A DNA stretch of 64,000 bases from Halosimplex rubrum (GTDB lineage: Archaea > Halobacteriota > Halobacteria > Halobacteriales > Haloarculaceae). Each line of letters starts with the position of its first letter. The stretch's first letter is position 1. The position numbers and the translations under genes are program-made. Positions 5,181 through 39,217 of the stretch are shown here, piece after piece. The DNA is taken from positions 186,001-250,000 of the forward strand of contig NZ_CP058910.1 in assembly GCF_013415885.1 (NCBI RefSeq). Direction: 5' to 3'. The notes beneath the pieces were generated by a model. It was not told the DNA's origin and did no database searches. It was given only the letters and a program-made list of their open reading frames with translations.

Positions 5181-6290
5181 TCACTCGACAGCCACGGGTT
5201 CGCCCCGCTCGGCCGACTCGTAGATCGCCTCGACGATGGCGACGGCCTTCCGGGCCTCGGGGCCGTCGAGCATGAACGGCTCGCCGCTCGCGCGGGCGTC
5301 GAGGAACTCGCGGACGTTGGGGAGTTCGAGCGGGTTCGGCTCGTCGGCGCCCGCGTCCGGCCCGGAGAAGCGCTCGCGCGTCGCCTCGTCGGTCTCGCGC
5401 TCCTCGCGGAACGTCCACGTCGTCAGCTCCTCGCCGCGGATCTCCGCGGAGCCGTCCCTCCCGCCGAGTTCGTACCGTATCTCGCCGCCGGGGTAGGTCG
5501 CCGTCGTCGCGAGCAGTTGGCCGAGCGTCCCGTCGCGGTAGCGCAGCGTCGCGACGGCGGCGTCCTCCACGGCGAGGTCGGCGTCGTGGCCGCGGACGCC
5601 GGTGAACGCCGACACCTCGGCGACGGGGTTCTCGTCGGGGTCTATATCCATCCCGGCGCCGGCGATCCACTGGATCGCGTCGACGCTGTGGATGGCCTGG
5701 CTCATGACCGCGCCGCCGCCCGCGACCGCGGGGTCGGCCTGCCAGGTCCCGTCGTAGTAGCCGTCGTCGCGCCACCACGGGAGCGCGGCGCTGGCGACCG
5801 CCAGCGACCCGAACCGCCCCTCGGCGACGGCCTCGCGGACGGTCCGGACCACCGGTTTGTACCGCCGCTGGAAGACGCCGCCGAGCCGGATCCCCGCCGC
5901 CTCGGCCGCGTCGATCAGCCGGTCGATCCGTTCGGTCGTGGTCTCCAGGGGCTTCTCGCAGAACACGTCGACGCCGCGGTCGGCCGCCGCGAGCGCCGGG
6001 TCGAGGTGCGCCCCGCTCGGGGTGCAGACGTCGAGTACGTCGGGCTCGACCGAGTCGAGCATCGCCGACACGTCGAGATACGGGTCGCAGTCGTGTTCGT
6101 CGGCGAACGACCGCACGCGCTCGTCGTCGCGGCTCGCGGTTTCACCGCTCGCTCCGTTCGGGGACTCGCTTCGCTCGTCTCCGCGGCCCGCGCAGGCGAC
6201 GACCGCGGCGTCGTCTAGCTGTTCGTAGGCGCGCATGTGGGTCTCGGCGGCGCTACCGACGCCGACGACGGCGATCCGGTGGGTGGGCAT
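5181..6290 (-). CDS. Gfo/Idh/MocA family NAD(P)-dependent oxidoreductase
   Basis: 369 residues from the ATG at 6290 (MPTHRIAVVGVGSAAETH). The N-terminal Rossmann fold has GVGSAAETH as dinucleotide loop. The family's EKPLETT stretch (catalytic-site Lys) is at about residues 117-123, and the C-terminal GFO_IDH_MocA sheet domain starts after about 130 (SLAVASAALPWW). Members oxidise or reduce sugars, inositols and related polyols; the substrate here is unknown. Residues 37-54 form an unusual in-frame insertion in the loop after the second strand, where family members run directly from the strand into the V-SFA-EH helix. Confidence 0.9.
   Translation of the reverse strand: MPTHRIAVVGVGSAAETHMRAYEQLDDAAVVACAGRGDERSESPNGASGETASRDDERVRSFADEHDCDPYLDVSAMLDSVEPDVLDVCTPSGAHLDPALAAADRGVDVFCEKPLETTTERIDRLIDAAEAAGIRLGGVFQRRYKPVVRTVREAVAEGRFGSLAVASAALPWWRDDGYYDGTWQADPAVAGGGAVMSQAIHSVDAIQWIAGAGMDIDPDENPVAEVSAFTGVRGHDADLAVEDAAVATLRYRDGTLGQLLATTATYPGGEIRYELGGRDGSAEIRGEELTTWTFREERETDEATRERFSGPDAGADEPNPLELPNVREFLDARASGEPFMLDGPEARKAVAIVEAIYESAERGEPVAVE
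6118..6187 (-). repeat. 54-bp in-frame mini-insertion (ASGETASR type) in the oxidoreductase gene
   Basis: Two 16-base direct repeats, 6118-6133 and 6172-6187, match at 14 of 16 positions and lie 54 bases apart. Between them lies sequence coding for residues 37-54 of the protein, ending in ASGETASR. Bases 6127-6152 are identical to bases 33971-33996 inside nadC, in the same reading frame. The core GCGGTGAAACCGC can fold as a hairpin. The direct repeats look like a target duplication or a slippage scar. Confidence 0.75.
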
Positions 6291-33483: not shown

Positions 33484-34362
33484 TCACCCCGTCCGGAAGG
33501 ACAGATCGAGCGTCGGCGCCGAGTGCGTCAAACTTCCCATCGAGATCACGTCGACGCCGGTCGCGGCGTAGTCGGGCACGGTCTCGACGGTGATCCCACC
33601 CGAGGCCTCGGCCAGCACCTCCCGACCCAGGTCGTCGGCCGCCGTCCGCAACAGGTCGACCGCCTCGGCGGTCGTCTCGGGGTCCATGTTGTCCAGCAGG
33701 ACGATGTCGGCGCCGGCTTCGGCGGCGCGGGGGGCCTGCTCGACCGTCTCGACCTCGACCTCGACCTTCGTGGCGAACGACGCCCGTTCGCGGAAGTGCT
33801 CGACGGCCGGTTCGAGGCCCATCTCGGCGACGTGGTTGTCCTTGACCATCACCATGTGCGACAGATCGAGGCGGTGGGTGTCGCCGCCACCGGCGACGAC
33901 GGCCCGCTTCTCGACGCCCCGCAGTCCGGGCGTCGTCTTGCGGGTGCCGGCGACGCGTACGTCGTCGCTCTCGCGGCTCGCGGTTTCACCGCTCGCATCG
34001 CCCGAGGTCTCCCATCGGTCGATCTCGCGAGCGGCGTCCACTGCGCGTCGCGTCTTCGTCGCGACACCGGAGGCGTGGCCCGCGATATTGACGGCCACCC
34101 GCTCGCCGCGCAGCACCTCGCGAGCGGAGCCCTCGACTTCGAGGACGGTGTCGCCGGCGTCGATGCGGTCGCCGGCGGCCGTGCTGTCGACGACTTCGAC
34201 GCCGAGGTACTCGAAGACGGCCCGGGCGGCGTCGAGGCCGGCGACGACGCCGGCCTCCTTGGCGACGAGGCGACCGGTCGTCCGGCCGGGCACCTGATTC
34301 GTCACGTCGTGGTGGCCGACGTCCTCGCGGAGCCACGTCTCGATCTTCGAATCGGGGATCAT
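33484..34362 (-). CDS. nadC: nicotinate-nucleotide pyrophosphorylase (carboxylating)
   Basis: 292 residues. REDVGHHDVTN (N-terminal), NIAGHASGVATKTRRAVDAA, GTRKTTPGLRGVEKRAV (phosphoribosyl/quinolinate-binding Arg/Lys), HMVMVKDNHVAE, VEVEVETVEQAP and DIVLLDNMDPE are all canonical NadC motifs. The enzyme joins quinolinate and PRPP, releasing CO2, to give nicotinate mononucleotide. Last of nadA-nadB-nadC, 15 bases after nadB. Residues 113-130 are an in-frame insertion between the ATKTRR helix and GTRKTTPG, absent from ordinary NadC. Confidence 0.95.
   Translation of the reverse strand: MIPDSKIETWLREDVGHHDVTNQVPGRTTGRLVAKEAGVVAGLDAARAVFEYLGVEVVDSTAAGDRIDAGDTVLEVEGSAREVLRGERVAVNIAGHASGVATKTRRAVDAAREIDRWETSGDASGETASRESDDVRVAGTRKTTPGLRGVEKRAVVAGGGDTHRLDLSHMVMVKDNHVAEMGLEPAVEHFRERASFATKVEVEVETVEQAPRAAEAGADIVLLDNMDPETTAEAVDLLRTAADDLGREVLAEASGGITVETVPDYAATGVDVISMGSLTHSAPTLDLSFRTG
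33964..34029 (-). repeat. 54-bp in-frame mini-insertion (ASGETASR type) in nadC
   Basis: Twelve-base direct repeats at 33964-33975 and 34018-34029 match at 11 of 12 positions and are 54 bases apart, the same spacing as in the oxidoreductase gene at 6118-6187. The inserted residues end in ASGETASR. Bases 33971-33996 are identical to 6127-6152 in the same frame. The core can form a GCGGT-GAA-ACCGC hairpin. Confidence 0.75.
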
Positions 34363-34377: not shown

Positions 34378-35997
34378 TCAGTCGGCCCGCGAGGGCGCGG
34401 GCTCCTCGACGAGGTTGTGCGTCCCCACGGACTCGCCGTTCTCGGCGGCCGCCCGCGTCACGAGCAGCGCCGTCACGGAGGCGTGGCGGAGTTCGTACAG
34501 CGACCGCGCCGTGCGCGTCCGGACGTAGGCGTCGACCTCGCCTTTCAGCCGCCGGAGGACCGCCTGGGCGCGACCCAGGTCGTCGGGACTCCGGCGGAGG
34601 CCGACGTACTCGTCCATCGTGCGGCGCAGGCGGTGGAACTTCTCGCGGGCGAAGTTGTCCGGAAGTGCGGGGTCCCGGTCGAGGAGTTCGGGCGCCTCGA
34701 CGACCGCGGGGTCGAAGTCGGCGGCATCTTCGCCGGCCCGGAGGCCCCAGACGAGTCCCTCCAGCAGCGACGTGGAGGCCAGCCGGTTGGCGCCGTGGAC
34801 GCCGGTCCGGGAACACTCGCCGACGGCGTACAGCCGGTCGAGGGAGGCCCGACCGCGGGTGTCCACGTCGACGCCGCCACAGAGGAAGTGCTCGGCCGGG
34901 CCGACGGGGATGCCGGACTCCCAGTCGACGCCGCGGGCCTCGCACTTCTCGGCGAGGTCGGGAAACTCCCCGCCGAAGTCGAGCGGGCTCACGTCGAGGA
35001 CGACCTCGCCGGTCTCGTCGATCTCCGTCTGGACGGCCCGGGCGACCACGTCCCGGGGCGCGAGTTCGGCGTCAGCGTGGTAGTCGGGCATGAAGCGCTC
35101 GCCGTCACCGTTCAGGAGGTGGGCGCCCTCGCCGCGGACGGCCTCGCTGACGAGGAAGGGGCCGTCGTCGGGGTCGTCACCGGACTCGACGGGTTCACCG
35201 TCTCGTTTCGATGCGCTTCGCGCCTCGCTCCCGGGGTAGACGGTCGGGTGGAACTGGACGTACTCCATGTCCGCCACGTCGGCGCCGGCGAGCGCGGCCA
35301 TCGCGATGCCGTCACCCGTCGACCCGTCGGGGTTGGTCGACCGGGTGTACAGGTCGCCGATGCCGCCCGTCGCCAGCACCGTCGCGCCCGCGAAGGTGGG
35401 CGTGACGTCGCCCTCGCGTTCGAGCAGGGCACCGTGGACGCGGCCCTCGTGGGAGACGAGTTCGAGCGCCGCGGTGTCGTCGCGGACGGTCACGTCGTCG
35501 CGGTCGTCGAGGTAGTTGAGGAACGGCACGTGGATCGCCTTGCCGGTCGAGGCGTCGACGTGGAGGATCCGCGGCTCGTCGTGGGCGGCCTCGCGGCCGA
35601 AGTCGAACGCCTCGGCGTCGTCGGCGCTCGCTTCGGCGGCGCCCGCCTCGGTCTCGTCGCTCGTGTCGAACTCCACGCCGAGGGTGTCGACGAGCACCTC
35701 GGAGACGGCGTCGTTGGCCTCGTCGACGAGCACGTCGACCGCTTCCGGGTCCGCGGTGTCGGCACTGGCGGTCAGGATGTCTTCCTTGAACTGGTCGGGG
35801 TCGTCCCGAGAGACGGCGATACCGCCCTGGGCCCACCACGAAGACGCCCCTTCCGGCCGGGTGGCCTTCGTCGCGACGGTCACCTCGGCGCCCTCGCGGG
35901 CCGCCCCGAGCGCGGCGGCCAGCCCGGCGATGCCGGATCCGACCACGAGCACGTCCGTCGTGCGGTAGTCGTCGTAGTCTTCGAGTTCGGAAGTCAT
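34378..35997 (-). CDS. nadB: L-aspartate oxidase
   Basis: 539 residues from the ATG at 35997. The FAD GxGxxG motif is VVGSGIAGLAAALGA (about 17-31), followed by GASSWWAQGGIAV (substrate/FAD loop), MEYVQFHPT, HLLNGDGERFMPDY, CGGVDVDTRGRASLDRLYAVGECSRTGVHGANRLASTSLLEGLVWG, and the C-terminal helical domain. It oxidises L-aspartate to iminoaspartate for NadA. Its start overlaps the nadA stop (ATGA). A 20-odd-residue insertion between FHPTVYPG and FLVSEAVRGEG is unusual. Confidence 0.95.
   Translation of the reverse strand: MTSELEDYDDYRTTDVLVVGSGIAGLAAALGAAREGAEVTVATKATRPEGASSWWAQGGIAVSRDDPDQFKEDILTASADTADPEAVDVLVDEANDAVSEVLVDTLGVEFDTSDETEAGAAEASADDAEAFDFGREAAHDEPRILHVDASTGKAIHVPFLNYLDDRDDVTVRDDTAALELVSHEGRVHGALLEREGDVTPTFAGATVLATGGIGDLYTRSTNPDGSTGDGIAMAALAGADVADMEYVQFHPTVYPGSEARSASKRDGEPVESGDDPDDGPFLVSEAVRGEGAHLLNGDGERFMPDYHADAELAPRDVVARAVQTEIDETGEVVLDVSPLDFGGEFPDLAEKCEARGVDWESGIPVGPAEHFLCGGVDVDTRGRASLDRLYAVGECSRTGVHGANRLASTSLLEGLVWGLRAGEDAADFDPAVVEAPELLDRDPALPDNFAREKFHRLRRTMDEYVGLRRSPDDLGRAQAVLRRLKGEVDAYVRTRTARSLYELRHASVTALLVTRAAAENGESVGTHNLVEEPAPSRAD
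35168..35231 (-). repeat. in-frame hairpin-prone insertion in nadB
   Basis: The stretch codes for about SEARSASKRDGEPVESGDD, inserted where other L-aspartate oxidases go almost directly from FHPT to the FL-SEA-RGEG motif. Its layout (CGAAGCG, a CGAAAC word, then GACGGTGAACCCGTC, which can pair with itself) parallels the elements in nadC and the oxidoreductase gene, though the peptide differs and no clear flanking direct repeat is seen. Confidence 0.5.
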
Positions 35998-39103: not shown

Positions 39104-39174
39104 AGCATCCGCGCGCCGGAGGCGCGCGGTTCCACGCGGCCGAACGGAGTGAGGCCGCGCCTTTTTCACCCATG
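39104..39174. other. stacked hairpins between repeat and hel308
   Basis: Two further inverted repeats follow copy B: CCGCGCGCC/GGCGCGCGG around 39109-39130 and GCGGCC/GGCCGC around 39136-39158, the latter ahead of a short T-run. No gene. They may be remnants of terminators or of other intergenic elements. Confidence 0.4.
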
Positions 39175-39217
39175 TTTTTTGCGAGGGGGTCGCCAGCGGC
39201 GACCCCCTCGCGAAAAA
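39175..39217. terminator. strong bidirectional terminator-like hairpin upstream of hel308
   Basis: Perfect 14-base arms GCGAGGGGGTCGCC (39181-39194) and GGCGACCCCCTCGC (39198-39211) with an AGC loop. T6 lies to the left and GAAAAA to the right, so a T-run follows the stem on either strand. It lies just before the TTTAAA promoter of hel308 and would insulate that gene from upstream transcription. Confidence 0.6.

Follow-up and report, generated by a model that had tools for sequence, protein, structure and literature searches.

A double-hairpin repeat, probably mobile, carried in frame within protein genes of Halosimplex rubrum and other haloarchaea

A short repeat of two adjacent hairpins occurs in frame within unrelated protein genes of Halosimplex rubrum, and we consider it very probable that the repeat is mobile and is tolerated by its hosts as an acidic loop. 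The window, which is the whole stretch of 64,000 nt analysed here, covers positions 186001-250000 of the single-contig 4.48-Mb genome. Genome comparison shows insertion against empty orthologues, a family structure, covariation, frame bias, distribution and tandem amplification; based on the presence and absence of copies, the element appears to move. A preliminary description of the window had suggested a hairpin-type mobile mini-element, in principle like those of Rickettsia, and this view is supported by the presence/absence pattern, the unrelated host genes, the compensatory changes and the tandem amplification.

The repeat was found in three genes on the minus strand whose products were checked with Pfam. 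The first (5181-6290) encodes a Gfo/Idh/MocA family oxidoreductase (PF01408, PF22725 and PF02894) and the second (33484-34362) is nadC, the quinolinate phosphoribosyltransferase gene (PF01729 and PF02749), both as previously proposed. The 26 bases said to be shared by 6127-6152 and 33971-33996 on the minus strand are identical, and they are read in a common frame that gives the peptide ASGETASR. A 24-base part of this 26-mer occurs twice in the window and in none of 100 window shuffles. The 26-mer is half of an insert present in both genes, for which a length of 54 bases had been given; codon-phased, the inserts are 54 nt each at 6132-6185 (minus strand, peptide RGDERSESPNGASGETAS, 77.8 bits with model R1) and 33976-34029 (minus strand, peptide REIDRWETSGDASGETAS). 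A third, diverged copy had been overlooked. It is a 48-nt in-frame insert at 35182-35229 (minus strand, peptide SEARSASKRDGEPVES, model R2 28.1 bits, E 9e-4), missing in the same-genus genome G093, and its hairpins H1 and H2 lie at 35209-35227 and 35185-35205 on the same strand. Its host, at 34378-35997, is assigned as nadB, L-aspartate oxidase, by homology and by the nadC neighbourhood, with FAD_binding_2 of Pfam matching 34381-35946. As a side observation, nadB adjoins nadC, and it also holds a six-unit array in G074 and probably the copy at locus L028.

Same-genus species lack the insert at the same codons, and thus empty sites exist for the Gfo/Idh gene and for nadC. The same 18 extra codons of the Gfo/Idh gene are present in H. 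rubrum and G090 and absent from G093, G091, G094 and G089 as well as from paralogues; those of nadC, also 18, are common to H. rubrum and G095, with none at that place in six other same-genus species. The insertions thus lie where the family normally has no residues, as had been stated. The orthologue alignment proposed as a check showed the peptide to be missing in most orthologues, so the objection that it is ancestral fails. In both genes, a 12-nt repeat surrounds a 42-nt core, and one copy of the repeat corresponds to the empty site. The left repeat of the Gfo/Idh copy (CGCGGAGACGAG, 6174-6185, minus strand) matches the right repeat (CGCGACGACGAG, 6120-6131, minus strand), which is the counterpart of the empty site CGCGACGACGGG in G093, at 10 of 12 positions and, in G090, at 11 of 12 (CGCGACGACGAG/A); the 14 of 16 matching bases described earlier were also recovered. 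In nadC, the left (CGCGAGATCGAC, 34018-34029) and right (CGCGAGAGCGAC, 33964-33975) repeats, again on the minus strand, agree at 11 of 12. In both copies, the left arm of H1 seems to be chimeric, part target and part element: the base that breaks the stem is in both genes that of the target and not that of the right arm. The same pattern was seen in the loop of TrpA (GGTAGCGACGGC in G164, GGTAGCGA..GCGAGCAGCGACGGC in G256).

Further in-frame inserts of H. rubrum relative to G093 were located at genome positions 161554, 164220, 221183, 527632, 716706 and 759013, in a comparison made on stretches that form part of the genome. The lengths of the clean coding inserts are all divisible by three (54, 54, 48, 48, 48, 42, 45 and 111 nt, and a codon-phased 51 nt), and a few of the inserts could be deletions in the sister genome, as most comparisons rest on one sister genome. 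Several targets contain NGCGA, which is also the opening sequence of the element. The motif is missing at 716706 and in nadB, and we therefore regard target duplication at insertion as no more than possible. The direct repeats are uneven, being strong in the Gfo/Idh and nadC copies of the window and 3-5 nt or absent in others. When left and right 12-mers were compared at a 54-nt offset, one of 12 offsets tested, similarity within loci was modestly higher than between loci (p 0.005, permutation over 51 coding copies), and some direct repeats may arise simply because a GAC/GAG-rich target happens to resemble the end of the element. The H1-H2 unit as a whole has no visible terminal inverted repeat, and its direct repeats vary in length; the end comparison covered the genome's own IS200 copies.

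The element consists of a variable hairpin, H1, followed downstream by H2 (GCGAGCGGTGAAACCGCGAGC), with a linker that in coding copies is commonly 6 or 9 nt long. In the Gfo/Idh copy, H1 (6159-6183, minus strand; core GAC-GA-GC-GAA-GC-GA-GTC) folds and is backed by covariation in the family, and H2 lies at 6132-6152 on the same strand. In nadC, H2 (33976-33996, minus strand) has the same bases as 6132-6152. The pairing of H1 (34003-34027, minus strand), which includes an A-C mismatch and a GA/GA pair, was read from the sequence; it is backed by family covariation and differs from the computed minimum-energy fold. The GCGGT-GAA-ACCGC fold proposed earlier is part of the structure, but the folded unit is the two hairpins and not that core alone. 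Copies were aligned in two size classes, A (54-nt unit) and B (48-nt unit). Over the whole structure of class A, standard pairs fill 97.1% of cells against 89.7% in shuffles, changes on both sides of a pair occur in 18 cells against 5.7, all within H1, and pairing falls to 33-38% when the partners are slid. In class B, 99.6% of cells are paired against 91.6% in shuffles, and there are 13 double-change cells against 1.6. H2 is invariant in these two sets because it was the search word; among copies found with the covariance model, its stems vary with pairing kept (GCGGC/GCCGC, GCGGG/CCCGC, ACGGC/GCCGT, GACGG/CCGTC and longer), the stem forms including GCGGT, GCGGC, GCGGGC, GCGGG, ACGGC and GACGG. 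As such, the stem-loop of the haloarchaeal element is supported by covariation.

Both hairpins use GNA-type loops, those of H1 being mostly GAA, GGA, GTA or GCA, and a tandem G-A mismatch (C-GA-G opposite C-GA-G) is frequent in both. A generic count of C-GA-stem-GA-G hairpins was uninformative at 2-bp stems, because codon periodicity yields similar control counts, and the contrast became clear once the count was limited to GNA loops: in 0.4 Mb of the genome, the inner dinucleotides of CGA-NN-GNA-NN-GAG are complementary in 30% of cases (56% with a GAA loop), whereas the other loop classes reach 7-8%. Very stable DNA minihairpins are known to have GNA loops closed by C-G, and the style of loops and mismatches points to folding as single-stranded DNA. 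In computed folding, RNA was at least as favourable as DNA for H1 and H2, and the DNA fold of the Gfo/Idh copy was no better than that of shuffles. The sampled element loci gave no Rfam match to the element; SRP RNA and a tRNA were the only matches, elsewhere in the loci. The pattern GGCGAAACCGC, which is not the true sequence of the element, gave a single, irrelevant match. Two side observations concern related structures. In Halorubrum (loci L036, L059, L069, L081, L083, L112, L117, L125 and similar ones), H2 forms a single helix within a longer intergenic sequence that is itself repeated, laid out as GGTGGCGCG...GAGGGACGCGGC-H2-GCCGCGAGGCTGGGGAGGCGTGAGG and without an Rfam match in the loci scanned; this could represent a repeated structured RNA or element not yet described. 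Minihairpins in the style of CGAACGGAGTGAG stand within a GC stem directly before T-runs at window positions 39133-39193 and at genome positions 684377 and 715453, in two of the three cases after a stop codon, like an intrinsic terminator.

Within genes, a clear coding frame runs through the element at 51 of 126 distinct H2 loci, and in 50 of these 51 the sense strand is read in phase 0 (S-G-E-T-A-S). Sense phase 0 alone of the six readings has a negative mean charge (-2.1), with 2% V, I, L, M, F, W, Y and C; the other five are basic, hydrophobic or interrupted by stops. Since only phase 0 is open, acidic and hydrophilic, selection acting on the protein suffices to explain the frame bias, and no special targeting is needed. 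In-gene copies encode an extra acidic loop of 14-18 amino acids. Judging by sequence motifs, further hosts include TrpA (tryptophan synthase), CarB, RNR, MoeA, acetyl-CoA synthetase and tRNA synthetases. Of about 50 species whose TrpA loop was read, most have no insert there, and those that carry one are scattered over lineages of several families. In AlphaFold models, the inserted residues 117-132 of NadC form a low-confidence loop at the end of a long helix, and residues 38-51 of Gfo/Idh, in a model of modest quality, form a low-confidence loop after the second strand. The insert seems to be translated as part of the protein and is probably neutral for its host.

The element is also amplified in tandem. 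The nadB gene of G074 (L323:1447-1770) contains six in-frame 54-nt units (REVDQRETSERASGETVS), five of them nearly identical, and an array of four units in G137 shares this period and the unit ends. The reading of the G137 array has stops in this frame and is thus non-coding in it, so the 54-nt period belongs to the element and does not merely reflect frame selection. On the protein side, the six units of G074 add 108 residues to L-aspartate oxidase directly after the FAD-binding GGGIAG motif.

The 18-mer core of H2, AGCGGTGAAACCGCGAGC, occurs exactly four times in the H. rubrum genome, and the six best matches to it there all resemble in-frame coding inserts. Over 146 genomes of the family, the word was found at 76 places in 46 genomes, and its reversed control at none; the search of haloarchaeal genomes recommended in the preliminary description thus speaks against a similarity due to chance alone. 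Among about 85,000 prokaryote genomes scanned, the exact 21-mer H2 was present in at least 120 stretches, with haloarchaeal titles for all of the matches listed; it was present in none of 2.9 million viral contigs. Of 197 genomes sampled across the phylum, 28 were positive, all from the window's own order, and no relatives of the element were found outside it. The covariance model R1 at E 0.001 gave 46 matches in H. rubrum and 40, 33, 32, 18, 18, 1 and 1 in seven same-genus genomes. G091 and G093, with one match each against 18-46 in their siblings, offer a natural comparison for a mobilising factor. In 0.8 Mb, at E up to 0.01, H. rubrum has about 28 matches against 3 in G093, and most strong copies in that part of H. 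rubrum lie between genes. A relative is also present in frame inside an annotated, deposited P-type ATPase CDS on a plasmid of Halomontanus rarus.

Based on these comparisons, we propose that the element is a short dispersed haloarchaeal repeat of about 42-54 nt, with H1 and H2 adjacent and no protein of its own, that opens with NGCGAG and closes with GCGAGC. New copies would often insert at a site containing NGCGA and leave a short direct repeat of it. Copies within genes would persist if their length is a multiple of three and they are read in sense phase 0 (S/R-E-A-..-A-S-G-E-T-A-S); this reading would supply a loop free of stops, acidic and hydrophilic, of a kind that the surface of a halophilic protein could tolerate. 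Movement may depend on an activity acting in trans on hairpin DNA, possibly single-stranded, and any specific mover is at best a tentative candidate. A broader picture is rather doubtful, in which an order-wide element has GNA triloops closed by C-G and tandem 5'-CGAG/CGAG-3' sheared pairs shaped by single-stranded-DNA folding, is copied by a hairpin-based route at NGCGA and continually adds acidic loops to enzymes.

Other explanations bear on how copies arise and spread. Perfect arms could be made and kept by template switching in replication together with gene conversion, and copies dispersed by ectopic gene conversion at NGCGA microhomology, with no transposition machinery. This is a serious alternative with some chance of being right: the chimeric look of the left arms, the exact period of the tandem arrays, stem changes on both sides and the absence of a transposase match would all fit, but by itself it does not account for copies in so many unrelated genes, for an H1-H2 order that is fixed and an H2 sequence conserved between families, or for the burst seen in certain species of one genus. 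That a transposase of the IS200/IS605 type (Y1/HUH) mobilises the hairpins in single-stranded DNA form, which would make them short relatives of PATEs or REPs, seems unlikely. The loop and mismatch code does resemble stable single-stranded DNA minihairpins, given the 30% against 7-8% of complementary inner dinucleotides, haloarchaeal PATEs with subterminal palindromes are known (PMC3119063), and Y1 counts follow copy number within the family (rho 0.40, p 0.018). Over 59 genomes, however, the correlation is weak (rho 0.19, p 0.14), 11 genomes have at least 10 copies but no Y1 match and five have Y1 but no copies, the ends of the genome's two IS200-type copies differ from the hairpins, and computed RNA folding is at least equal. 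The end comparison and the Y1 co-occurrence likewise argue against classing the element as a PATE or another IS200-IS605 derivative.

We are similarly sceptical that terminating transcription or acting as structured RNA is the primary role of the hairpins, with in-gene copies spilling over from a functional intergenic element. Most strong copies in the 0.8 Mb lie outside genes and minihairpins of similar style stand before T-runs behind stop codons, but the sampled loci lack an Rfam family, the in-gene copies are recent, species-specific and without T-runs, and insertion into coding loops would stay unexplained without mobility. Ribosome-skipped hairpin inserts exist in some fungal mitochondria, a precedent for removal of the inserts from the product as introns or ribosome-bypassed segments; here, removal is very improbable, for the clean inserts are stop-free multiples of three in one acidic frame, and bypass would require neither. 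GAC/GAG-rich loops are common in haloarchaea and could suggest a conserved ancestral protein segment or chance low-complexity similarity. This reading is practically untenable, since the segment is missing in most orthologues, occurs also outside genes and is far above its 18-mer control. A mobile double-hairpin repeat carried in frame is thus the explanation that we favour.

Among known systems, the palindromic elements of Rickettsia are also inserted in frame in unrelated conserved genes as unstructured surface segments, occur outside genes and are missing in orthologues (PMC2229807, PMC10969869). The haloarchaeal element is similar in being in many genes, in frame, also intergenic, missing in close orthologues and apparently tolerated as loops. 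It is not a Rickettsia palindromic element proper, which is 105-150 bp with one long stem-loop, whereas the haloarchaeal unit is 42-54 nt, GC-rich and made of two hairpins; its GNA-type loops, tandem G-A mismatches, tandem arrays and order-wide spread differ as well, and size, architecture and host separate the two by description rather than by sequence alignment. Protein-coding palindromic repeats of Wolbachia, as far as they are described where PMC2996958 cites them, are in-frame inserts in protein genes. They share in-frame palindromic insertion with the haloarchaeal element and belong to an unrelated host. To our knowledge, they are unrelated to it in sequence, again a separation by description. 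Coding-potential palindromic repeats of Methanocaldococcus jannaschii (Suyama, Lathe and Bork 2005) are cited in PMC2229807 and PMC2996958, and going by these citations, they too are archaeal palindromes fused into protein genes, from one methanogen outside the haloarchaea and distinguished by description only. With this precedent, the kind is already known, and coding palindromes in archaea are not wholly new. The PATEs, MITEs and SMRs of Haloquadratum walsbyi are small non-autonomous haloarchaeal repeats with palindromes, and in-frame use is not described as a rule in the passages of PMC3119063 consulted, in contrast with the element studied here. PATE ends match IS605-type ends and MITEs carry terminal inverted repeats, neither of which was found for the haloarchaeal element. 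REP/REPIN sequences (RAYT transposases) are likewise short hairpins in tens to hundreds of copies, possibly with single-strand processing, but REPs are extragenic, while the haloarchaeal element has two different hairpins in fixed order and a distribution that a linked Y1 family does not explain. In the literature searched, which consisted mostly of papers outside subscription, we found no earlier description of the haloarchaeal family, its double-hairpin code, its single frame or its arrays.

Taken all together, in-frame coding palindromes, known from obligate intracellular bacteria and one methanogen, now also have a family in the haloarchaea. This group is large, free-living, culturable and genetically tractable, so that direct tests of insertion, translation and fitness effects can be made in it. 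With clean filled and empty pairs available inside a single genus, the way in which such elements move can also be tested, and protein annotation and alignments in haloarchaea are affected by such inserts. They also illustrate how acidic surface loops can come to be part of haloarchaeal enzymes.
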